Source: Methanopyrus sp. SNP6 (GTDB taxonomy: Archaea > JAADCQ01 > Methanopyri > Methanopyrales > Methanopyraceae). Taken from it: 64,000 bases of DNA. The notes beneath the pieces were generated by a model. The model saw only the letters and a list, made by a program, of their open reading frames with translations. It searched no databases and was not told the DNA's origin. Position numbers and translations under genes: made by a program. The stretch spans positions 791,619 to 855,618 of the forward strand of contig NZ_CP019436.1 in the NCBI RefSeq assembly GCF_002201895.1. The letters are read 5' to 3'. Of this stretch, positions 7,648-20,878 are shown piece after piece (positions within the stretch are counted from its first letter, which is position 1; each line of letters starts with the position of its first letter).

Positions 7648-8685
7648 TTGGGGTTACCGCACGAGCCCGGAACACCCGCGATCATACTGTGTCACGGGGC
7701 GTTCGACAAGCCTCATGGGAAGACAGCACACGGACTGCTCCGGTTCGGACGTGTTTATGACATCGTTGCCGTGATAGATCGCGAGCTGTCTGGGAAAACC
7801 GCACGAGATGTGGATCCGAATTTCCCGCCGGTGCCTATACTGCGGTCGGTGAGTGAAGCCATAGAGGAACTGGATCCTGAAGTGTTGCTGATCGGAGCGG
7901 CGCCGCCCGGTGGGAAATTAACCCCGGAGTGGAAAGAAGAAGTCATCGAAGCTGTCCATGCGGGCCTGGATGTAGTGAGCGGGCTCCACGAGTTCCTTTC
8001 GGAGGACCCGGACATCAGCGAGGTGGCCGAAGAATCAGGTTCACGGCTGATAGACGTGAGGAAACCTCGGAAAGAGTTGTTCCGAGTTGCGGACGGGTCG
8101 GCCAGGGACGTGGATGCCACGGTAGTTCTCACGGCGGGGACGGACTGCGCCGTTGGTAAGATGTCGGCGGCCATCGAGCTCGCGGAACGCCTGAGGGAAG
8201 AAGGGGTAGAGGCCGCGTTCTTGGCGACGGGACAGACCGGTATCATGATCGGGGCTGAAGATGGCGTCGTGGTGGATCGCATGCCCGGGGACTTCATGAC
8301 GGGGGCCGTTGAGGAACTGGTCGTCCGCTTGGCCGAGGATCATGAGATCGTCGTAGTAGAGGGACAGGGGGCGTTAAGCCACCCGGCGTATTCCGGGGTT
8401 ACACTAGCTATCCTGCATGGCGCCTGGCCTGACGCTGTGGTGTTGGTGCACGACCCGGTTAGGGAGGTGCGGGATGGTTTCCCGAGGTTCCGAGTCCCCG
8501 ACCCACGCACCGAGGCGACGCTGATCGAGTCGCTTAGTGCGGCGGAAATAGTCTCGGTAGCTTTACGCACGTGGGACGAGAGACTCGCGGAGGAGTTATC
8601 GTCCGAAGGATACCTGGTAGAACGTTTAGGCGACCTCAGGAAAACTGTAGACAGGGTGTTAGAGGTTCACCGGACGGGGCGCTGA
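7648..8685 (+). CDS. DUF1611 family protein (DgcN-like, P-loop)
   Basis: A protein of about 345 residues with an N-terminal Rossmann-like domain (IILCHGAFDKPHGKTAHGLL) and a C-terminal P-loop-like domain (LTAGTDCAVGKMSAAIELA), then VVVEGQGALSHPAYSGV, all typical of DUF1611. Some members are D-glutamate N-acetyltransferases (DgcN) working with an enolase-family racemase (DgcA). Such a homolog lies directly upstream here, though disrupted. The TTG start at 7648 is 4 bases after a perfect AGGAGGTGG. The 3' end overlaps the convergent DUF2111 gene by 19 bases. Confidence 0.8.
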   Translation: MGLPHEPGTPAIILCHGAFDKPHGKTAHGLLRFGRVYDIVAVIDRELSGKTARDVDPNFPPVPILRSVSEAIEELDPEVLLIGAAPPGGKLTPEWKEEVIEAVHAGLDVVSGLHEFLSEDPDISEVAEESGSRLIDVRKPRKELFRVADGSARDVDATVVLTAGTDCAVGKMSAAIELAERLREEGVEAAFLATGQTGIMIGAEDGVVVDRMPGDFMTGAVEELVVRLAEDHEIVVVEGQGALSHPAYSGVTLAILHGAWPDAVVLVHDPVREVRDGFPRFRVPDPRTEATLIESLSAAEIVSVALRTWDERLAEELSSEGYLVERLGDLRKTVDRVLEVHRTGR

Positions 8686-9017
8686 GTCACCTTCCTGAGC
8701 GAGGAGTAGATACCGTAAGTGAGGTCGACGACACCGAGTGCGGCGATAGTCTCGCTCTTATCCTTGATAGGAACCACTACAACCGGTGTTCCTTCGTAGG
8801 GTCCCGATTCCGGCACCTTTCTGATCACCTCACCTTTCTCGAGCACCTCCTCCAGGATCGGGCCCGTGTACTCGTCGTCGATCACCTCGCCATCCTCTAT
8901 TCTTACCCCGGGATTGTCCCGGGTTCGCATTGTCACGGGCAGACGATTGACCAACTCATGGACCGCCATTGCGAGCGGTAATATATCTTCGGCTGTCGAG
9001 TCGGGTCTGATTCTCAT
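8667..9017 (-). CDS. DUF2111 family protein
   Basis: A 116-residue protein matching the archaeal DUF2111 family, found mainly in methanogens. The conserved segment LAMAVHELVNRLPVTMRTR, then NPGVRIEDGEVIDDEYTGP, is intact. No catalytic motif is evident and no role is known. It starts with ATG and reads away from a decayed DUF1847 gene. Confidence 0.75.
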   Translation of the reverse strand: MRIRPDSTAEDILPLAMAVHELVNRLPVTMRTRDNPGVRIEDGEVIDDEYTGPILEEVLEKGEVIRKVPESGPYEGTPVVVVPIKDKSETIAALGVVDLTYGIYSSLRKVTQRPVR

Positions 9018-11173: not shown

Positions 11174-11932
11174 GTGAGGTTAAACGTCGACGTGGCGATC
11201 AGGGTGAACGGGATACTCTTAACCCCCGAAGAGCTCGAGTTGCTGCTCAAGTTGTCGGAACACGGATCAATGTCCAAAGTGGCGGAAGAGAAGGGTGTGA
11301 CACGGTCCGCGGTACATAAAAGGATTAGGAATCTCGAGGAACGTCTCGGGTGCCGACTGGTTGAATCGAGCCCTCTCGGATCTTATCTCACGGAGCACGG
11401 ACGCAGGATAGTGATCAAGTACGTGAACGCCAAGGCTAGACTCTCGAGGACGGAAACTACAGTGGCATGTTCTGAGACCGTGATAGAAGACGTCCTAGCC
11501 GCTCTAGGTAGGGAACACGATGTCGACGTTATCGTGCCGCCCCACGAGAAAATGAGTCGTGTGGAGGCGGACGTGGTGGTCCCAGACGATCCGGTGATAG
11601 TCTTTGACCGCTCTGATGAGGCCGTCGGCGAACCGGTCGTCGTCAGACGAACGCGGCTGGTACGGGTCGGTGACGGAAGTGGGTTCGTCGAGGTACCTGG
11701 GAGCGCACAGCGGATATACCTTACAGATCTCCGCAACAGGGAGGAGGTAAGACCGAAAATGCGCGTAGGCTATTACGCTTCGGCCCTCGAGGCTGTTCGA
11801 AACGGAGGAATGTGGACCGTGGTACCCGAAGAGCTGGCGCCTGAAGGAGACGATCCCGGTCCTCACTACACCGTGATGGCGTTACCACTCACCCGAGAAG
11901 GGGAGGACCTCCTCGATGCTTTGGAAAGCTAG
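11174..11932 (+). CDS. LysR/ModE-type winged-helix transcriptional regulator
   Basis: The N-terminal HTH (LLLKLSEHGSMSKVAEEKGV, then TRSAVHKRIRNLEERLGCRL) is typical of LysR/ModE DNA-binding domains. The C-terminal half (about 100-250) has a short ligand-binding-like region with SALEAVRNGGMWTVVPEEL, but no molybdate-binding Mop motif was seen. It is divergent from hdrC, so it could control hdrCB; that is inference from position only. Confidence 0.75.
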   Translation: MRLNVDVAIRVNGILLTPEELELLLKLSEHGSMSKVAEEKGVTRSAVHKRIRNLEERLGCRLVESSPLGSYLTEHGRRIVIKYVNAKARLSRTETTVACSETVIEDVLAALGREHDVDVIVPPHEKMSRVEADVVVPDDPVIVFDRSDEAVGEPVVVRRTRLVRVGDGSGFVEVPGSAQRIYLTDLRNREEVRPKMRVGYYASALEAVRNGGMWTVVPEELAPEGDDPGPHYTVMALPLTREGEDLLDALES

Positions 11933-12254
11933 CCTAGTAGGTTTAGTGGCAGTGTATGCGATTTTGGCAACCGCAGGATGTCAGGAAATGAAAGCACCGC
12001 CGATCGACCAGCCGCAAGGGCCGCAGAAGGTACCTGAAGTAGGAGGTCAACCGGGACCGGGGCCATCCGGTCCCGGTCCAGGTGCTCCCGGAACAACACG
12101 AACTCAACAGTCCTACTGGCAGACGTTCACGAACCCTATGTACTCCGTACAGTGGGCCACATCGGAGATACCGTGGTTCCCCATAGGACTGATAGCAGCG
12201 ATCGTGGTGGGGTATTACGTGGGGTACCGGAAGGGGCCGTCGCCGTGGGAATAG
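11916..12254 (+). CDS. small proline/glycine-rich membrane-anchored lipoprotein-like protein
   Basis: A 112-residue protein with an N-terminal hydrophobic segment ending in ATAGC (lipobox-like). A Gly/Pro-rich linker (about residues 35-65, GPGPSGPGPGAPG) follows, then a C-terminal membrane helix (FPIGLIAAIVVGYYVGY) and a basic end. It overlaps the regulator gene by 17 bases and so is probably cotranscribed. Two anchors around a flexible linker suggest an extracytoplasmic loop. No family was recognised. Confidence 0.6.
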   Translation: MLWKASLVGLVAVYAILATAGCQEMKAPPIDQPQGPQKVPEVGGQPGPGPSGPGPGAPGTTRTQQSYWQTFTNPMYSVQWATSEIPWFPIGLIAAIVVGYYVGYRKGPSPWE

Positions 12255-12261
12255 CCGGAAG

Positions 12262-12969
12262 TTACGGTATTTCGGTGATTGAATTACCTACTACGAGAAA
12301 CGCCATCGGAGACATTGCCGCCACTAGGCACTCATCAGGGACTTCCGCGTAAGTGCGCGAACCGTTGCACCCGAGTGTGAAGTTAACTCCACCTTCCTTC
12401 ACGATCTTGCCCACCGCGTCGCCGCACAGGGACTGGATACCGGAGAAGTTGGAGTGTACTCTCCCACCTTCTGGGTACAAGTACGCCTGAGTTATTTTCA
12501 TGGCCTCCTTAGGCCTACACACGACCAAGATGACGTCCGGAACTACTTCGACATCGATAGCCTTCTCGTACGTGATAGCATCGAACACTCCCTCCCCGTC
12601 GAAGACCTTCGGTACCCGATCGACCGTACGTTTGGAGGCCGAGAGTGTAGAGTGCTGCCCGAGTTTCTCGTGGTAGAACTTACCCGTCCTCACCGGGTCC
12701 GGGATGTCGTCGAGTCCTATAGCCGCAGATCCGCCCTTACAGGCCTGCTCCTCCGAAGTTGCGTAGATCTTGTCCATCTCACCGCGAGCTACCTCCATCA
12801 CGAACTCGCAGTGACGGCGGGCTTCATCTACCCGCTCGTAGCCGTTCGGGACATCCTCTTCACTGAGGTACAGCTTCATCACCACAGGATGCAGGTCTAA
12901 GTCCAGGGTCTTCATGAGTGACTCGGCAGCTTCGCGGATCCTCTCAGGTTCCTCGACGCACATGGACAT
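12262..12969 (-). CDS. DUF169 family protein
   Basis: A 235-residue protein with the conserved cysteine and glycine segments of DUF169 (CEFVMEVARG, EEQACKGGSAAIGL, SGIQSLCGDAVGK, GCNGSR). The cysteines suggest binding of a metal or cofactor, but no activity is established from sequence. ATG 12969 is chosen; a TTG at 12984 is an alternative. It is convergent with the lipoprotein-like gene. Confidence 0.7.
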   Translation of the reverse strand: MSMCVEEPERIREAAESLMKTLDLDLHPVVMKLYLSEEDVPNGYERVDEARRHCEFVMEVARGEMDKIYATSEEQACKGGSAAIGLDDIPDPVRTGKFYHEKLGQHSTLSASKRTVDRVPKVFDGEGVFDAITYEKAIDVEVVPDVILVVCRPKEAMKITQAYLYPEGGRVHSNFSGIQSLCGDAVGKIVKEGGVNFTLGCNGSRTYAEVPDECLVAAMSPMAFLVVGNSITEIP

Positions 12970-13023
12970 AAATTGTGTCCCCAATCGTTTGTTCTCGATC
13001 GCTCAGCTACCGGTCACTTACAT

Positions 13024-13032
13024 GTATTAAAA
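13024..13032 (+). promoter_or_regulatory. TATA-like box upstream of the TrmB-like regulator
   Basis: TATTAAAAG lies about 40 bases upstream of the TTG start of the next gene, in the intergenic gap after the divergent DUF169 gene. It is AT-rich against a GC-rich background. Confidence 0.4.
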
Positions 13033-13071
13033 GTTGCTGATATCGACACACTGGTGAATGGGGGTGGACTA

Positions 13072-13473
13072 TTGAGGCCTTTCTTGAGGCCCATCGTAGT
13101 AGAGCTAGTCCAGGGAACGGCAGAGCTCAAACCGGAACGCGTACTCTCGTGTGTTTTTGGAGTCAAGGAAGACGAAGCAGAGCTGTACTTAAAACTGCTC
13201 GAAAACTCGGAGGAAGCACCATTTACCGTCGAGGACGTAGCCGAGATCATCAACAGGAGCAGGAGCACGGCTCAGAAGATGTTACAAAGCCTCGTTCGGG
13301 TTGGGATGGTAGAGCGGGAGCGCGAGACGTTGCCCGGAGGCGGTAGACGTTATCTGTACCGTCCCGCACCATGGGAGAAAGTAAAAGAACTCGGACTCGG
13401 AAACCTCAGGATAGTCCATGAGGAGGTAGAGAAGTGGTTCCGGGAATTCACACCGCACCGAGGGGGAAGATGA
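13072..13473 (+). CDS. TrmB-like winged-helix transcriptional regulator
   Basis: A 133-residue protein with a winged-helix domain ([40 protein letters not shown]) and short basic ends, resembling single-domain TrmB/MarR-like archaeal regulators. TTG 13072 is used because GGGGGTGG precedes it by 4 bases. The next gene, a small zinc finger, starts one base after the stop. Confidence 0.7.
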
Positions 13474-13474
13474 G

Positions 13475-13684
13475 ATGTCCGAGGAGAGGAGACCGTTCAA
13501 AGCCGAGAAAGTCGAGACTAGGGACGGAGAGATACTCCTCAGATGCCCACGCTGCGGTGCGTTGTTCCGCGACCAGAAGTCGTACTCTAGGCACGTGAAT
13601 AAGTCCCACCTGTACAAGAAGAACCGTCCGAAGCGGATACTCAAGAAAATGAAGCGTCGCGGGGACGCGTTAGTTCAGGACTGA
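13475..13684 (+). CDS. small C2H2-type zinc finger protein
   Basis: A 69-residue basic protein with [20 protein letters not shown], then SH. CxxC followed 12 residues later by HxxxxH forms a single C2H2 finger. The lysine/arginine-rich tail ([16 protein letters not shown]) suggests nucleic acid binding. It follows AGGGGGAAGATGAG and is probably cotranscribed with the TrmB-like gene. Confidence 0.7.
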
Positions 13685-13693
13685 TGCTAACCT

Positions 13694-13754
13694 GTGATGG
13701 GGAACAGGCTGAGCGCCGAGGCCTCAGGCCCGTGACGAGAGAACCCGGAGCCGA
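13694..13754 (+). ncRNA. possible C/D box-like element (weak)
   Basis: The intergenic sequence holds GTGATGG (13694-13700), then GTGACGA (13732-13738), a 12-nt segment and CCGA (13751-13754). The last three have the same spacing as the validated RNA at 34180-34228. No target was found in the 23S gene here, and the first half is irregular, so this is only a candidate. Confidence 0.22.
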
Positions 13755-13761
13755 CTACACG

Positions 13762-14214
13762 CTACACACGTAACTCACCGCGCTTCCACAGCTCGATCAC
13801 GCGCTTCACGATCTTTATGGTGCTGTCCAACGGACACCGTTCGTACTTCTCGATCCGACGAACCTCACAATCGACACCGACGCGTTCGGCCCAACGTTCG
13901 ACTTCCTTCTCATCGATGTCCTGATCGGGTCCTAGGACGACGACATCCGGTTTCACCGCCTTCAGGGTGATGGAGAAGTCCCGTGGATGGCCTAAGATCG
14001 CTCGATCAACGGGTTTCAGCGCCGAAACCATCCGTACACGCTGTTCCTCCGGCACGATCGGGGTTCTCTTCAGGCGTTGCACGGTTTCGTCTCGGGCGAC
14101 CACGACTACGAGTTCGCCGTCCTTTCCGGCTATTTTCCGGGCTTCCTCAAGGAACGCGGCGTGTCCTGGATGGAGGATATCGAACACACCTCCCGCAAGC
14201 ACACGCTTACCCAC
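13762..14214 (-). CDS. ribL: archaeal FAD synthetase
   Basis: A 150-residue nucleotidyltransferase with GGVFDILHPGHAAFLEEARK (the HxGH adenylyl-transfer motif) and the CTP:phosphocholine cytidylyltransferase-like fold, matching archaeal RibL, which makes FAD from FMN. It starts with ATG, 78 bases from mmp5, and is transcribed the opposite way. Confidence 0.88.
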   Translation of the reverse strand: MGKRVLAGGVFDILHPGHAAFLEEARKIAGKDGELVVVVARDETVQRLKRTPIVPEEQRVRMVSALKPVDRAILGHPRDFSITLKAVKPDVVVLGPDQDIDEKEVERWAERVGVDCEVRRIEKYERCPLDSTIKIVKRVIELWKRGELRV

Positions 14215-14292
14215 GTGAATGCTCCCCCGGGTGCGACCGAAGTTTGATTAACTCCGAACTGCCGGGTGTCCTGACGGCGCGGGGTGTTAGTA

Positions 14293-14730
14293 TTGGCCAG
14301 GGTGTTCATCCACCCTCCTAACAGTCTGATTCTCCACGATCTAGTCGAGAGGTTCGGGCACGAGCCGCTCTCACTACCGAAAGAGATAGGCAAGCGGGTA
14401 CGGGACCCAGAGATCGACTCACCTCCGATGAACGTGACCCCGCAGGACGCGAAACGTGGTCTAAAGTACGCGGCCGTGGAGGTACCTTCGGGTGTCAGAG
14501 GCAGGATGGCTCTGATCGGTCCACTTATAGAGAAGGCCGACGCCGCCATCGTAGTCACGGGCATCGAAGACATCTCCTTCGGCTGCTTAGGCTGCGATAG
14601 AACGAACGAGTTCGTGACGTACCTAGTTCGACGTCAGGGTATACCGGTGCTGGAGCTGGAGTACCCGAGATCGGAAGAGGAAGCGAAAGTGTTCGTCCGT
14701 GAGATTCGAGACTTCTTGGAGTCGTTATAG
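14293..14730 (+). CDS. mmp5: methanogenesis marker protein 5
   Basis: A protein of about 145 residues starting [20 protein letters not shown]. It has [18 protein letters not shown] near the end and matches methanogenesis marker 5, which occurs only in methanogens and relatives. The C-x-x-C may bind a metal or cluster. TTG 14293 is chosen, after GGGGTG; GTG 14284 is possible. First gene of mmp5-mmp15-mmp17-nifB-mmp7. Confidence 0.82.
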
Positions 14731-14743
14731 GGGTGACCCCCGT

Positions 14744-15967
14744 TTGGCAGTCCATATCGCTCAACTCTCGTGCGGCACGGAGTACAGTGGTGTTCAACCC
14801 GAGATAGAGCGCGCTGCCGAACGGGTCGGAGCCGAGATCGTACTCCCCGAGGTAGACATCGATATCGTAGAGGAAGCTTGCGAGGAGGTAGGGTACACCC
14901 CGAAGAGCGCGAACTTGAGGGTACTCCTTGCCCGTGCTTACGCGCTCGCGAACGGGTACGCGGAAGCCGACGCAGCCATTATCCTTACATGCTTCAGGTG
15001 TGCCGAAGGTGCCCTCGTGCGTAACGAGGCCCGACGGTACCTTCAGGAGAACACCGATCTCCCCGTCGTCACCTACTCGTTCACTGAAGACCTCGACGCT
15101 AGCGAGTTACTCACGCGTATGGAGGCACTAGTCACGATAGTGGAGCGGAAGGGGCTGCTAGCCCGGAAGAGGCAGGAGGGGCTCACCCTCGGTATCGACT
15201 CTGGTTCCACCACCACCAAAGCCGTGGTGATGGAAGACGACGAGGTGATCGGAACCGGATGGGTGCGGACAACGAAAGTGGTCGAATCCGCGGAAAAGGC
15301 CGTGGAAAGAGCGTTAGAAGAGGCAGGATACGAGCTCAATGACATCGAGGCGATAGGCGTGACCGGATACGGCAGGTACACCCTCGGCCGCCACTTCGAC
15401 GCCGACCTGGTGCAGGAGGAGCTCACTGTCAACTCTAAGGGAACGGTATACCTGGGTGATAAGCAGGAAGGTGGAGCGACCGTAATCGACGTTGGCGGGA
15501 TGGATAACAAGGCGATCACCGTTTGGGACGGAATTCCGGATAACTTCACGATGGGCGGAGTGTGCGCGGGAGCGTCAGGCCGCTTCCTCGAAGTAGCCGC
15601 GGACCGTATCGGCGTGGACCTGGACGAGTTCGGTAAGATCGCTCTGGATGGAAATCCAGAAGCCGTGCGACTGGACAGTTACTGCATCGTATTCGGGATC
15701 CAGGACTTGGTGACCGCGCTGGCCGAGGGTGCGGATCCCGAGGATGCCGCCGCTGCCGCATGTCGGAGTGTCGCAGAGCAGATCTACGAGCAGCAACTCC
15801 AAGAGATCGACATCCGAGAGCCGGTGTTCTTCGTAGGAGGAGCCTCGCTAGTCGAAGGCATGGTGAAGGCGTTAGAGGACGTGATCGGCGTCGAAGTAGT
15901 TGTGCCCGAGTATCCCCAGTACATCGGGGCCGTCGGTGCCGCTCTCCTGGCCTCCAACTACGTGTGA
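14744..15967 (+). CDS. mmp15: methanogenesis marker protein 15 (CoA-dehydratase activase-like ATPase)
   Basis: A two-part protein. Residues about 1-135 contain cysteines ([18 protein letters not shown]). Residues about 145-407 form an ASKHA ATPase like the activators of 2-hydroxyacyl-CoA dehydratase and benzoyl-CoA reductase ([52 protein letters not shown]). In activases the cysteine near [12 protein letters not shown] binds a bridging [4Fe-4S] cluster, consistent with ATP-driven low-potential electron transfer. TTG 14744 follows GGGGTGA. Confidence 0.88.
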
Positions 15968-15979
15968 GGGGATCTGGTT

Positions 15980-16606
15980 GTGTACGAACACATGGGAAAG
16001 AGGATCCTCGTAAGGGCGTCCGAAAAGGAAGCGGCCGAGCTGTATTACGATATCGCTAGGCACGCGGCCACCGATCTGGGACTGGCGAGGACGATCACCG
16101 CAGCCGTGTTCCACCTAGACATCGAAGCCCCGCTCTACGCCGCCGCAGTGCGAACGCGTCCCATGCTCAGGCCGGTGACGCTGGGAAAGGTCTCGCACCT
16201 TGAACTCGACGATGAAGAGGGCACTCTCAAGGTATCTGTCGCGGTGGAGCGCTACTTCCCCGATGTGATCCGAACGTTGCAGGATGTATTCGGAGAGGAT
16301 CGGGTCCGGCACGAAGAGCGCCTCAAAATCACGGTCGAGCCACCCGAGGGGATGAGTTCAGAACATCTCGAAAAACTCGAAGAGCTCGTCGTCCACGATC
16401 CTCGGAAGAAGCTCGCCCATAGAGTGTACGACCTCATCGAACGGGTGAGACCGGAAGGGTTCCGAGTGGCCCGATACGCGCGCTTCGATCGGGACTTTCT
16501 ATACCTGGCCAGTGAAGGCGTGCTCAAGGACGAGTGGACCGACTTACTTTTCGAGCTGCCGGGGGATCTAGATCGTGTCGGAGAGCGCCGGGGGCCGAGT
16601 GAGTGA
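15980..16606 (+). CDS. mmp17: methanogenesis marker protein 17
   Basis: A 208-residue protein matching methanogenesis marker 17. It has an N-terminal alpha/beta region (EAAELYYDIARHAATDLGLA) and a second, ferredoxin-like half (PDVIRTLQDVFGEDRVRHEE). Mmp17 is one of the proteins reported in the ATP-dependent methyl-coenzyme M reductase activation complex with McrC, Mmp7 and AtwA. Its end overlaps the start of nifB by 4 bases (GTGA). Confidence 0.85.
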   Translation: MYEHMGKRILVRASEKEAAELYYDIARHAATDLGLARTITAAVFHLDIEAPLYAAAVRTRPMLRPVTLGKVSHLELDDEEGTLKVSVAVERYFPDVIRTLQDVFGEDRVRHEERLKITVEPPEGMSSEHLEKLEELVVHDPRKKLAHRVYDLIERVRPEGFRVARYARFDRDFLYLASEGVLKDEWTDLLFELPGDLDRVGERRGPSE

Positions 16607-17451
16607 GAGGATCGTGTCCGAACGACCACCCGTGTTACGTCGGTGAGCACGGGAAATTCGTTAAGGTGCACCTACCCGTGGGCGGACGGTGTAACATCCA
16701 CTGCCGTTTCTGCGAATCCGGACTCGAGCACGAGGGAGTACGGGTGGATTATCCTGGGCGTACCGTCCGCACGATCACCGGAGGTGAGGCCAAGACGGTC
16801 CTCGAGAGGGTAAAAGAGCGCTGCGGACGCGTCGACGTCGTCGGGATCGCCGGACCCGGTGACCCACTGGCGAACTGGGAGGACGTGAAGGAGACCTTCG
16901 ATATCGTCGCCGAAACAGTACCGGAGGCAAAACGCTGCCTGTCCACCAACGGCGTGTGGCTACCCGGGCTGATCGATGAGGTGACGGAGCTCGTGCACTC
17001 GGTAACGATAACCATCAACGCGCTGGATCCTGAAGCCGCAGCCGAGATCTACGATCGGGCACTGACACCCGAGGGCGAGGTGCTGACCGGTAAGGAAGCC
17101 GCCCGATGGATCGTCGACAGGCAGAAAGAAGCCATGGACGCGCTGGAGAAGGAGCGCTACATACTCAAGAAGGTCAACTTCGTGCTCGTCCCCGGTGTGA
17201 ACGAGGATGAGGTCGAACGTGTCGCGAAGCGCGCCGCCGACGCAGGGTTTCACGCCATGAACGTAATCCCTCTCATCCCAGGCGGCGATATGAAGGATCA
17301 CCGACCGCCGACGTGCCGGGAACTCTCGAAGGCACGGGACCTGGCTGAGGAACACATCACCGTGATGCGCCGATGTATGCAGTGTCGCGCCGACGTGATC
17401 CACTGCCGCGGCAGACCTCGGCTGATCTGGGAGATGCTAGAAGAGGAATGA
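16603..17451 (+). CDS. nifB: NifB-type radical SAM protein (Fe-S cofactor precursor synthase)
   Basis: A 282-residue stand-alone NifB. CNIHCRFC is the radical SAM CX3CX2C cluster site. It is preceded by CPNDHPCYVGEHGKFVKVHL (extra Cys/His ligands expected of NifB) and followed by the C-terminal CMQCRADVIHC that binds a second cluster. NifB makes NifB-co, the [8Fe-9S-C] precursor of nitrogenase cofactors. Here it overlaps mmp17 and mmp7 at both ends, and no nif structural genes are present. That points to a role in methanogenesis, namely supplying the complex clusters reported in the MCR activation complex. It lacks the extra domains of bacterial NifB. Confidence 0.88.
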   Translation: MRGSCPNDHPCYVGEHGKFVKVHLPVGGRCNIHCRFCESGLEHEGVRVDYPGRTVRTITGGEAKTVLERVKERCGRVDVVGIAGPGDPLANWEDVKETFDIVAETVPEAKRCLSTNGVWLPGLIDEVTELVHSVTITINALDPEAAAEIYDRALTPEGEVLTGKEAARWIVDRQKEAMDALEKERYILKKVNFVLVPGVNEDEVERVAKRAADAGFHAMNVIPLIPGGDMKDHRPPTCRELSKARDLAEEHITVMRRCMQCRADVIHCRGRPRLIWEMLEEE

Positions 17452-18380
17452 ATCCGGGGGTCACGAGCGTGTTCGAAACCGTGATCTATGAAGGGGGCGT
17501 GTATAAGGCCGATGAGATGCGCGACCTGGTCGAGGACCTCGGAGGGTTCATCCTGTCCGAGCACAAGATGCAGTTGGAAGTTCACATGGTTCTAGCCGTA
17601 CCAGTCGATGACCTGGATGTCGTGGAGCGGAAGGCGGAGGAGCTCCTCGGAGAGATCAGGAGGATGCCGCTGGCTGGCACCGAGATCGCAGTCGTGGGAA
17701 TGAGCCTGGCCCGTCATCATATGCCACATCCCGTGTGCGATATCGCCGAGTACCTCAGGCGCCACGGCGCCAAGTCCAACGTGATTGGATTGGCAAGAGG
17801 TTACGGACGCGAGCTGGCCCAGCTGCGCGCCCGAGAGAAACGCCTCCTTGAGGAACACGACTTGGTAATATTCGTCGTAGGGAACTTCAAAGACTGTATC
17901 GAGAAGTACAAGCTTCCGCTGGTACGACGGATAGAACGTGTGCCGGTCGTCGTAGTGGGAGGTCCGGAGGGGATCGACGCCGACGACGTGGTGTACGTAG
18001 GAGGAGTAGGTAGGAAGCCATACCGGTTCAGGAAGGGTCGCGAGATCACGAAGCTCGACGAGATCGTCGACGTCGTCTCGAAGATTATCGAAGAGCGACG
18101 ACAGGAGTTGGCCGAGGACCCGCCCGCCGTCCCGCCGATGGTAGTGAAGGATCGGATCAACCGGGAGCTTAAGATCGAAGAGAGGTTCACCTCTCCCATG
18201 CCGATCACACTCCAGCTCGACGGTCTTCGGGTGAAGGCACCGTACGACGAGTGGGCGGACCGAGTGGCTGAGGTCAAGGTCTTCGGGTGGAAGCTCCGGG
18301 AAATCGCGGATATCAGGCAGTCTGAGATGGACGATCACATACTAGTGAAAATCAAACCTAAGAGCGCGGTGACCGGATGA
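17448..18380 (+). CDS. mmp7: methanogenesis marker protein 7
   Basis: A 310-residue protein matching methanogenesis marker 7, starting at an ATG that overlaps the nifB stop (ATGA). Visible blocks are the N-terminal FETVIYEGGVYKADEMRDL, ARHHMPHPVCDIAEYLRRHG (Cys/His-rich) and VVVVGGPEGIDADDVVYVGG. Mmp7 is reported as a component of the ATP-driven MCR activation complex. The 4-base overlap with nifB indicates tight coexpression. Confidence 0.87.
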   Translation: MNPGVTSVFETVIYEGGVYKADEMRDLVEDLGGFILSEHKMQLEVHMVLAVPVDDLDVVERKAEELLGEIRRMPLAGTEIAVVGMSLARHHMPHPVCDIAEYLRRHGAKSNVIGLARGYGRELAQLRAREKRLLEEHDLVIFVVGNFKDCIEKYKLPLVRRIERVPVVVVGGPEGIDADDVVYVGGVGRKPYRFRKGREITKLDEIVDVVSKIIEERRQELAEDPPAVPPMVVKDRINRELKIEERFTSPMPITLQLDGLRVKAPYDEWADRVAEVKVFGWKLREIADIRQSEMDDHILVKIKPKSAVTG

Positions 18381-18588: not shown

Positions 18589-19317
18589 TCAGGCGGCCTC
18601 CCGCTGTTTCACCCTGTCGTATAGGCCTATCCGCTCCCGCCAGTAGCGACGAGCTTCTTTCTCACCCCTCCAGAGACGCACGATGTGAAGGCCGTACCAA
18701 GCCGGCCACGGAGCCAACACGTCCGCTAGGATGTCTCGAACTGTTCCGGGTAACCCTCTGAGCACGCTATCGATTATTACTCTTCCGCCACCTGGCCGCC
18801 CAAGCCGACGCAACGGATTGAACTCGACAGACCTTAGGATCGAGTGAATCCGACTGACTCCTTCTCTCACTATCTCCTCAAGCTTTCGGAGCACCTCCGC
18901 ACGGTGCTTGGCGGACATTTGCGTGAGTCGCCTCAGCACCGGTACGAGGGCCCTACGGACCGCCTTAGCCACGAACCACTTCGCCTTCCTATGCTCCGAC
19001 AACCTCGGGGCCGCGAGTCTGATTGTTTCGAGCCATTCTCGGAGAAACCGAACTGATTCGTTGTCTTCTCTGCCTAAGTAGATGGTGCGGCCACGCTCGC
19101 CCTTCCGCGGCTTCCACCTGGCCTCGTAGTACGGCCCATACACCTTCCCGTTCACCGACCGGTACGACGCACCCAAGAACGGGAGGATTCCACGCCTCAA
19201 CGTTTCCATCAACACCCGGAACACCCGAATCAACTCCACAGGGTCCTTCGGGACCTCCATCGGGATACCCAACCGGACCGGGTCGAGTATCGGCGGTCCT
19301 CCAGGTCTGACGTTCAT
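18589..19317 (-). CDS. orphan basic protein with a GPYYEARW...YLG motif
   Basis: A 242-residue, strongly basic protein. Near residue 60 it carries VYGPYYEARWKPRKGERGRT then IYLG, a motif seen in short DNA- or phage-associated proteins (DUF6788-like). The remainder is helical and Arg-rich (KAVRRALVPVLRRLTQMSAK). No catalytic motif is seen. A decayed relative is recognisable at 37850-38219, so this is a family present in at least two copies. It is divergent from another orphan gene. The gap 18381-18588 between mmp7 and this gene shows no gene or RNA I can support. Confidence 0.55.
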   Translation of the reverse strand: MNVRPGGPPILDPVRLGIPMEVPKDPVELIRVFRVLMETLRRGILPFLGASYRSVNGKVYGPYYEARWKPRKGERGRTIYLGREDNESVRFLREWLETIRLAAPRLSEHRKAKWFVAKAVRRALVPVLRRLTQMSAKHRAEVLRKLEEIVREGVSRIHSILRSVEFNPLRRLGRPGGGRVIIDSVLRGLPGTVRDILADVLAPWPAWYGLHIVRLWRGEKEARRYWRERIGLYDRVKQREAA

Positions 19318-19591
19318 TCGATACCCCCCACTCCTGGCGCCGAGCGCATTTAAAATTCTTCCGATTACAGACGCACAATATTGGCGTTGAGCTTAAGTTT
19401 GTGCGAACGTCTAATTCTCCCAACAGAACCACCGGGACCGTCAGAACCACGGCATCCGTGTGTGGTGTGTGAGGGGAGTAAATGATTTAACTGACCCGGT
19501 CGAGTCCACGGTCAGACCAACGCTCGCACAAATGGGAATGGTTGGAGAGGAGGGCAAGAGGGAGGCTCCCACCGGTCGGGGGTCGAGGCCC

Positions 19592-20878
19592 ATGAGCCGC
19601 GGCACCAAGGCCGGCATCTACCGAGATGTACTCGTTATTGAAGTTTTCCCCGGTGCAGTCCCTGACACCGGAACGCTCCGAGCCTTGAGCGATAGAGATC
19701 GTAGGCTACTCCTAGCAGCGGCCGGATACGACGTAACCGAGTTCTGGGCTAGGAGTTTCATAGGACTGCTCTTCGATCACCCGACGCCTCTCGTTAGGGC
19801 ATCCGAGAGGCACGAGAAATTGCTACCGGAGGCGACGGTGGTAGCGGTCCGCGAGTTGTGCGATCGTATTGAGCCCGAGAAGCTACTGGAAATCCGTAAC
19901 CGTGTGGCTTCAGGAGAGACTCCGAGGGAAGCCGTACGCCGTGTCCTCGGATCCAAGATGGCCGGAGCCGTTTCCAGACTGCTCGGACGTGTGATGGGTT
20001 ACGTACAGTCCGACCCGCTCTCCGTGTCCATCACCCTCCAGGTGTTAGGCGCTATGATTGCAGCGGGTAAACGCCTTGAAGATGTGTCATCGGTCTTAGT
20101 CGTTATCCCGGACTTAGAGCACGTACGCATCGACGGATACCGGTTAGCACGTCGAGTTTACTCCAACCTCCTAAGGGCGATGAAGTCCCTCAGGCACCAC
20201 TTCAACCCACGAGTTAGGGTGCGAGTGTACGTAGCCACTGGTGATAAATTGGAACACCCAGCAGGAAATTCTATAGAAGAAGAGCTGATCGAGGCGTACG
20301 AGGAGCTCTCAAGAAAGCCCACCGTTAGACGCTTCTTCCCGGAGCGTGGTTACTTCACCGAGGTGCCTTGGGACCGTGCGCTTGCCGAGTTTTTTGTGCG
20401 AGTCATCCGAAGGGAGCTTCACCGTAGATCTCTGAAGGTCGCCCGAGCCGCGAAGCGTGAGGGTACCTCGGGGAGAGAACTGTCTGAGGTGTACGGTAGG
20501 GAGTACGGCAAGTGGTTGAGTAGGTGGTTCAAACGAGGTCGTCGGTGGTTGAGTTTTCACAGACCTAGCCCGGCACTCTCCGATATCTCCTGCTACTTCG
20601 TAGCGTCAGAGGCGGGAGTGGAGGGTTATCACGAAAAGTTCCTGATAAAGATACTTAGGAAGGTCGTAAGGGAAGTCGTCGAACGTGGGGTAACGGGACG
20701 GCGACTTGTGCGAAGGATAGTCAGAAAGGTCGCCAGAGCCATGAGGAAGAACTTCAGGGTTAAAGGGGAAACACGTGAAAGTATCCTCCACATGGCTAAG
20801 CTACTCAGCGGTAGACGCAGATCCGCGTTAGGCGGTAAGACTCTACTAGAAGCGTTCGGAGCTCCTCCACCGAATTGA
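19592..20878 (+). CDS. large basic orphan protein
   Basis: A protein of about 428 residues with an Arg/Lys-rich, mostly helical composition and a central alpha/beta part (SVLVVIPDLEHVRIDGYRLA, RVRVRVYVATGDKLEHPAG). No recognised domain. ATG 19592 (MSRGTKAG) is preferred; the frame stays open upstream to 19460. The gene is flanked by AT-rich DNA on both sides and is divergent from the orphan at 18589. The pair may be an accessory module peculiar to Methanopyrus. Confidence 0.5.
   Translation: MSRGTKAGIYRDVLVIEVFPGAVPDTGTLRALSDRDRRLLLAAAGYDVTEFWARSFIGLLFDHPTPLVRASERHEKLLPEATVVAVRELCDRIEPEKLLEIRNRVASGETPREAVRRVLGSKMAGAVSRLLGRVMGYVQSDPLSVSITLQVLGAMIAAGKRLEDVSSVLVVIPDLEHVRIDGYRLARRVYSNLLRAMKSLRHHFNPRVRVRVYVATGDKLEHPAGNSIEEELIEAYEELSRKPTVRRFFPERGYFTEVPWDRALAEFFVRVIRRELHRRSLKVARAAKREGTSGRELSEVYGREYGKWLSRWFKRGRRWLSFHRPSPALSDISCYFVASEAGVEGYHEKFLIKILRKVVREVVERGVTGRRLVRRIVRKVARAMRKNFRVKGETRESILHMAKLLSGRRRSALGGKTLLEAFGAPPPN

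Follow-up and report, generated by a model that had tools for sequence, protein, structure and literature searches.

A nifB homolog among methanogenesis-marker genes linked to MCR activation in Methanopyrus

The window analysed here is a 64,000-nucleotide stretch of the 1.42 Mb genome of Methanopyrus sp. SNP6. It harbours the methanogenesis-marker genes mmp5, mmp15, mmp17 and mmp7 together with a nifB homolog, and the probable role of this homolog in the activation of methyl-coenzyme M reductase (MCR) is the subject of the present work. Nearly all methane of biological origin is produced by MCR, and the way in which the enzyme's nickel becomes reduced has long been debated. The head-to-tail order mmp5-mmp15-mmp17-nifB-mmp7 on one strand, first read from the DNA letters (the original prediction), was confirmed with NCBIfam profiles. 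All five genes are present at their predicted places, the four mmp genes with scores above the profile cut-offs and nifB as a homolog.

14284..14730, forward strand: mmp5 (DUF2112); TIGR03271 247 bits, PF09885; start at 14284, 14293 or 14302
14744..15967, forward strand: mmp15, BcrAD/HgdC-type activase ATPase; TIGR03286 768 bits, PF01869; likely TTG start
15980..16606, forward strand: mmp17, subunit of the MCR activation complex; TIGR03291 236 bits; matches 8s7v chain G
16603..17451, forward strand: nifB, single radical S-adenosylmethionine (SAM) domain, 282 amino acids; TIGR01290 E 2e-64; single copy
16711..16758, forward strand: nifB codons 37-52, third SAM-motif Cys and rewritten plug loop CESGLEHEGVRVDYPG; from the 70-row NifB alignment
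17448..18380, forward strand: mmp7, McrC-like cluster-binding subunit of the MCR activation complex; TIGR03274 486 bits; 8s7v chain H, E 1e-86

The genes are closely spaced, with intergenic distances of 13 and 12 bases, a 4-base overlap and then either -4 or +17 bases, and for this reason they probably form a single transcript. The GTGA overlap of mmp17 and nifB (16603-16606) is real, as had been claimed, and is common to the Methanopyrus genome G001; in G004 both genes abut. A second 4-base overlap, ATGA between nifB and mmp7 (17448-17451), also exists in the sequence, but it needs an ATG seven codons upstream of the mmp7 start of the relatives. In the other three Methanopyrus genomes, mmp7 starts at the equivalent of GTG 17469, with GTG or TTG (MFETVIYEGG or MYETVIYEGG). 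Since these relatives use the later start and are without that ATG, a 17-base gap is likelier, and the overlap was rejected as a conserved coupling.

The absence of nitrogenase genes holds for the whole genome. A genome-wide profile search gave no NifDK or NifEN, and the only nitrogenase homologs are the CfbC/CfbD pair of F430 synthesis. CfbD (TIGR03282, 539 bits) is the sole PF00148 protein, while a single strong NifH-like match stays under the nifH cut-off and is consistent with CfbC. A second NifB or a hidden nitrogenase was rejected, as the search gave one NifB and no NifDK.

Co-occurrence with Mmp7 and gene order across archaea

The strongest support found for NifB serving MCR activation is its co-occurrence with Mmp7. 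In a sample of 297 archaeal genomes, Mmp7 occurs in 56 and NifB in 69; NifB is present in all 56 genomes with Mmp7 versus 13 of the 241 without it (Fisher p ~2e-48, shared ancestry ignored). An Mmp7 scan with a narrow alignment matched Methanopyri and Methanococci only; the counts rest on a wider genome search, and the Methanopyrus genome G003, which matches via McrC only, was excluded from the Mmp7 count. In 29 of the 56 genomes, PF00148 was represented by a CfbD-like protein alone, or by nothing above the threshold applied; five of the remainder encode a single additional NifE/D-like protein, and the other 22 carry NifDK-like pairs.

Three related observations came from the same genomes. Several Methanobacteriales (L131 in G146, and G006, G028, G182, G218, G272 and others) encode a stand-alone NifE/D-like protein of ~400 amino acids, distinct from CfbD, which occurs without a NifDK pair; its best NCBIfam match, NifE with 147 bits, lies far below the cut-off. 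Frames of 137-176 amino acids in families f34, f3 and f87 (for example G146:C1:516663, G146:C1:515715, G068:C1:12925 and G182:C1:801935) match residues 1-70 of the Mmp7 profile only, which would suit a small stand-alone protein equivalent to the Mmp7 N-terminus. Family f38 (L118, L119, L121 and L124-L127; genomes G075, G189, G170, G207, G261, G055 and G243, of 3 Mb and possibly from Asgard archaea) has a divergent NifB homolog and no Mmp7. At L126, this homolog follows topoisomerase VI A-like and Roadblock genes, and the gene spacing is similar at L119, L121 and L125.

Gene order alone, from which the role of NifB had been predicted, turned out to be a weaker guide than claimed. From gene coordinates, the 56 Mmp7 genomes fall into four layouts. 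The genes mmp17 and nifB adjoin, with mmp7 far away, in 16 Methanobacteriales genomes (families f34, f3, f78 and f87), whereas mmp17 and mmp7 adjoin, with nifB elsewhere, in 21 genomes (f27, f33, f93, f81 and f14). All three genes are apart in 15 Methanococcales (f22 and f42), four of which have nifB and mmp17 as convergent neighbours within 2 kb. The order mmp17-nifB-mmp7 is found in the four Methanopyrus genomes with the locus and in no others among the 56; the fifth Methanopyrus genome, G003 (89% complete), is without mmp17, nifB and mmp7 together. In the first layout, the loci read mmp15-mmp17-nifB, with mmp5 upstream wherever the stretch reached (tblastn with the window proteins); the exception is L103 (G182), where tblastn detected mmp17-nifB alone.

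Conservation of the gene order applies to one junction but not to the other. A same-strand mmp17-nifB junction recurs in 20 of the 56 genomes, in Methanobacteriales and Methanopyrus, and this recurrence places the adjacency beyond chance. By contrast, nifB stands beside mmp7 in just four, all of them Methanopyrus, and this adjacency was rejected as a general rule. Two arrangements that never coincide in the rest of the sample are combined in Methanopyrus, which fits either an ancestral mmp17-nifB-mmp7 order broken in two ways or a Methanopyrus-specific merger.

Cluster ligands of NifB and its proposed clients

The window NifB scores 217.8 bits against TIGR01290, below the curated cut-off of 343.65. 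Just 21 of the 69 archaeal NifB-bearing genomes pass this value, because the NifX-like domain is missing from archaeal NifB. Its identity is supported by a phmmer match to 7bi7 (E 6e-57) and by an AlphaFold2 model (predicted local distance difference test, pLDDT, 88), whose top PDB matches are the solved NifB structures (7bi7, E 4e-28, template modelling score 0.84). For the NifB alignment, 68 loci were combined with the window copy and the Methanothermobacter thermautotrophicus reference to give 70 rows, and the residue assignments for K1, K2 and the SAM cluster were taken from PMC7145814 and PMC9692996. The radical-SAM motif CxxxCxxC (C30, C34 and C37 in the window NifB), the K1 ligands C11, C112 and H23 (C30, C129 and H43 in Methanosarcina acetivorans numbering) and the K2 ligands C258 and C261 (C274 and C277) are invariant in 70/70 rows. 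C264, earlier proposed as a K2 ligand, is present in 37 rows only.

The activation complex of Methanococcus maripaludis holds three [8Fe-9S-C]-like clusters, with the ligands McrC H49/H118 for FeSI, McrC C55/C12 and possibly Mmp7 C90 for FeSII, and Mmp7 C143/H84 for FeSIII (PMC12176620). Mmp7 and Mmp17 had been named as components of the MCR activation complex, and they do match chains H and G of 8s7v. SNP6 encodes Mmp7, Mmp17, Mmp3 and McrC, the four components searched for. By alignment, its McrC keeps the ligands as H47, H115, C53 and C10, and its Mmp7 as H91, C150 and C97, in columns that are invariant in 31/31 usable sequences. For Mmp15, the suggested function as an ATPase for low-potential electrons agrees with its family. 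Its C-terminal 256 residues align with the activase 4eht, both activase cysteines are kept, and an N-terminal extension of ~145 residues precedes them; this support is at the sequence level only.

Probable role of NifB and its altered loop

Very likely, the five genes are transcribed together and serve the ATP-dependent reductive activation of MCR, in which NifB supplies L-type clusters to McrC and Mmp7. NifB would join two [4Fe-4S] clusters and insert a SAM-derived carbide, generating the [8Fe-9S-C] (L-type) cluster; methanogen NifB makes the L-cluster in vitro. In this nitrogenase-free organism, the clients would be McrC, which is encoded in the mcr operon and has FeSI and FeSII, and Mmp7, which has FeSIII where it meets Mmp17. 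Their clusters would carry electrons to the nickel of F430, and Mmp15 probably provides ATP-driven low-potential electrons. For Methanopyrus, we infer that NifB builds the L-cluster, that the cluster reaches both clients, and that Mmp15 acts in this way.

The connection between NifB and MCR activation made in the original prediction is very probably right, with the co-occurrence in 56/56 genomes and the retained ligands in its favour, but it is already known. In the activation complex of McrC, Mmp7 and Mmp17, Ramirez-Amador et al. 2025 (PMC12176620) observed clusters of the [8Fe-9S-C]-like type; they also pointed out that nifB follows the mmp cluster in Methanothermobacter marburgensis and suggested NifB as the source of the clusters. 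They call NifB essential; one of the three sources cited for this, PMC8809328, reports no nifB deletion. The latter describes nifB of Methanocaldococcus FS406-22 as located outside the nif cluster and possibly having another function. A NifB homolog is listed among methanogen-specific genes (PMC3087415), and in a diazotrophic methanogen on N2, nifB was up by log2 1.8 versus 7.0-8.8 for the nif structural genes (PMC9765008). So modest a rise would suit a gene that also has another task. The nifB-mmp7 junction of Methanopyrus, the counts across genomes and the missing plug residues were not found in the accessible literature, outside which lie many subscription papers, including those on NifB crystal structures. 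What is new here is the Methanopyrus gene layout and the NifB loop variant.

Several points weigh against this role of NifB. In most lineages, nifB and the mmp genes are not linked, and in class II methanogens nifB is located elsewhere; the carbide of the MCR-complex clusters is putative (PMC12176620). Family f38 has NifB without Mmp7 or NifDK, so NifB may have other clients. The remaining points concern the protein itself. C62 of NifB, in the flexible loop behind the SAM motif, is described as strictly conserved and capping the unique iron of the SAM cluster; together with the K1 ligand E65 (ExRPG), it acts as a plug, impeding the binding of SAM before K2 has been loaded (PMC9692996). Both residues are missing in 4/4 Methanopyrus NifB sequences, where the loop reads ESGLEHEG....DYPG. 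The Methanopyrus NifB is also unusually divergent, with 37-40% identity to that of other class I methanogens. Given the lost residues and the divergence, its product may differ.

By the Cys62/Glu65 criterion, the Methanopyrus protein would be classed as a NifB homolog with an altered gate rather than a standard NifB. An extra Cys, seven residues past the second K2 Cys, is present in 4/4 sequences (CRADVIHC or CRADVLHC). NifB identity between Methanobacteriales and Methanococcales is 52%, and Mmp7 identity is 48-52% between Methanopyrus and other class I methanogens versus 53% between the former two orders. As Mmp7 shows little such drop, the acceleration is specific to NifB, and it may reflect gate relaxation or a changed function. 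In 5/5 f78 genomes (Methanobrevibacter type; TRNINDEENRPG, TRKLNDTEKRPG and similar), where nifB follows mmp17, C62 is likewise missing but the Glu is kept; 2/7 f38 sequences are also without C62. In a NifB tree built without the loop, the C62 trait needs four changes, and Methanopyrus stands on a very long stem.

Among the 55 Mmp7 genomes with a usable NifB, Cys62 is lost in 8/28 without NifDK-like proteins, 0/5 with a single NifE/D-like protein and 1/22 with NifDK-like pairs. The tally has no significance, with just three independent pairs on supported branches, and with so few independent events the loss cannot be tied to missing nitrogenase. The sole NifDK-like-bearing genome whose NifB is without Cys62 is G163, in which L133 carries a NifH/NifD-like/NifK-like trio far below the Nif cut-offs. 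A tentative proposal, possible rather than probable, is that NifB of some nitrogenase-free methanogens became dedicated to MCR and dispensed with the Cys62 plug. This would have happened in Methanopyrus, where the loop reads ESGLEHEG....DYPGR, the loop Glu is lost and a C-terminal Cys is new, and as a separate event in the Methanobrevibacter group.

The same observations could mean that the homolog serves MCR activation with a different product or control, making an L-type cluster without an off-switch or a carbide-free 8Fe cluster. The loop rewritten in all four Methanopyrus genomes, the new conserved Cys after the K2 Cys, the Cys62 loss in five f78 genomes with nifB after mmp17, and the acceleration of NifB relative to Mmp7 (37-40% versus 48-52% identity) would fit. 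This explanation is nonetheless unlikely, as every direct K1, K2 and SAM ligand is kept, and the Mmp7/McrC sites match those holding L-like clusters in M. maripaludis. Less probable still is a NifB client other than MCR, for example F430 synthesis or another enzyme, with shared regulation only behind the place in the mmp operon. In its favour, the f38 homolog lies beside topoisomerase VI A and Roadblock genes in genomes lacking Mmp7 (the two tested are without PF00148 proteins), and SNP6 has CfbC/CfbD, relatives of nitrogenase. However, CfbD is reported to be without [8Fe-9S-C] clusters (PMC12176620), and NifB tracks Mmp7 in 56/56 genomes. That chance genome rearrangement brought nifB to the mmp genes hardly deserves credence. 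Although nifB lies elsewhere in 32 of the 56 Mmp7 genomes and is merely a convergent neighbour of mmp17 in four more, the same-strand junction spans Methanopyrus and Methanobacteriales (20/56) while mmp3, mmp6 and mcrC are distant here, and its conservation already disfavours chance.

In a genome without nitrogenase, a cluster synthase gene placed between those of two activation-complex subunits says very simply that L-type clusters have a use in methanogenesis besides N2 fixation. If NifB did become dedicated to MCR, its plug-less forms would represent ungated L-cluster synthases found in nature, linked through their operon to the MCR activation complex. Such variants, if active, would separate the parts needed for chemistry from those needed for control only, and they bear on moving NifB into other hosts.

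Surroundings of the putative operon and known systems

Upstream of the operon, positions 11174-14214 hold a LysR/ModE-type helix-turn-helix gene, a DUF169 gene, an Lrs14/TrmB-type regulator gene and a cytidylyltransferase gene that diverges from mmp5. The mmp operon might be a target of any of these regulators. Directly after mmp7 follow a DUF1678 protein (18589-19317, reverse strand) and a 472-amino-acid protein without a Pfam match (19460-20878, forward strand), which have counterparts behind mmp7 in G001 (DUF1678-like) and G004 (440 amino acids). A further gene lies 5.3 kb from the operon on the opposite strand, and its M. thermautotrophicus relative belongs to the mmp cluster:

8667..9017, reverse strand: DUF2111 gene; PF09884 128 bits; 53% identity to the L094 neighbour

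The mmp3, mmp6 and mcrC genes occupy distant genome sites (C1:1018652, C1:605171 and C1:876957, respectively). An Mmp6 candidate near 60.8 kb of the window (tblastn E 0.02) was rejected because it has no family match and mmp6 is located elsewhere.

The Methanothermobacter mmp cluster (MTBMA c04360-c04410, then nifB; PMC12176620) has the same mmp5-mmp15-mmp17-nifB order and strand as Methanopyrus. Further genes precede it (a DUF2111 gene, judged by homology, and what we read as Mmp6- and Mmp3-like genes) that lie elsewhere in Methanopyrus, and mmp7 is far from the cluster, whereas in Methanopyrus it directly follows nifB. The MCR complex of M. maripaludis (8s7v, 8s7x and 9h1l) has Mmp7, Mmp17, Mmp3, McrC and the Mmp7/McrC ligands in common with Methanopyrus. 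Its mmp genes, unlike those of Methanopyrus, are scattered, and the main text of PMC12176620 does not name Mmp5 or Mmp15. NifB of M. thermautotrophicus (7bi7 and 7jmb) shares the single-domain fold and all K1, K2 and SAM-cluster ligands with the Methanopyrus protein. The latter is ~40% identical to it, has lost the plug Cys and the loop Glu, and carries the additional conserved C-terminal Cys. Finally, the 2-hydroxyacyl-CoA dehydratase activator (4eht and 1hux) resembles the C-terminal 256 residues of Mmp15, including both cysteines, while Mmp15 differs by its additional N-terminal domain of ~145 residues.

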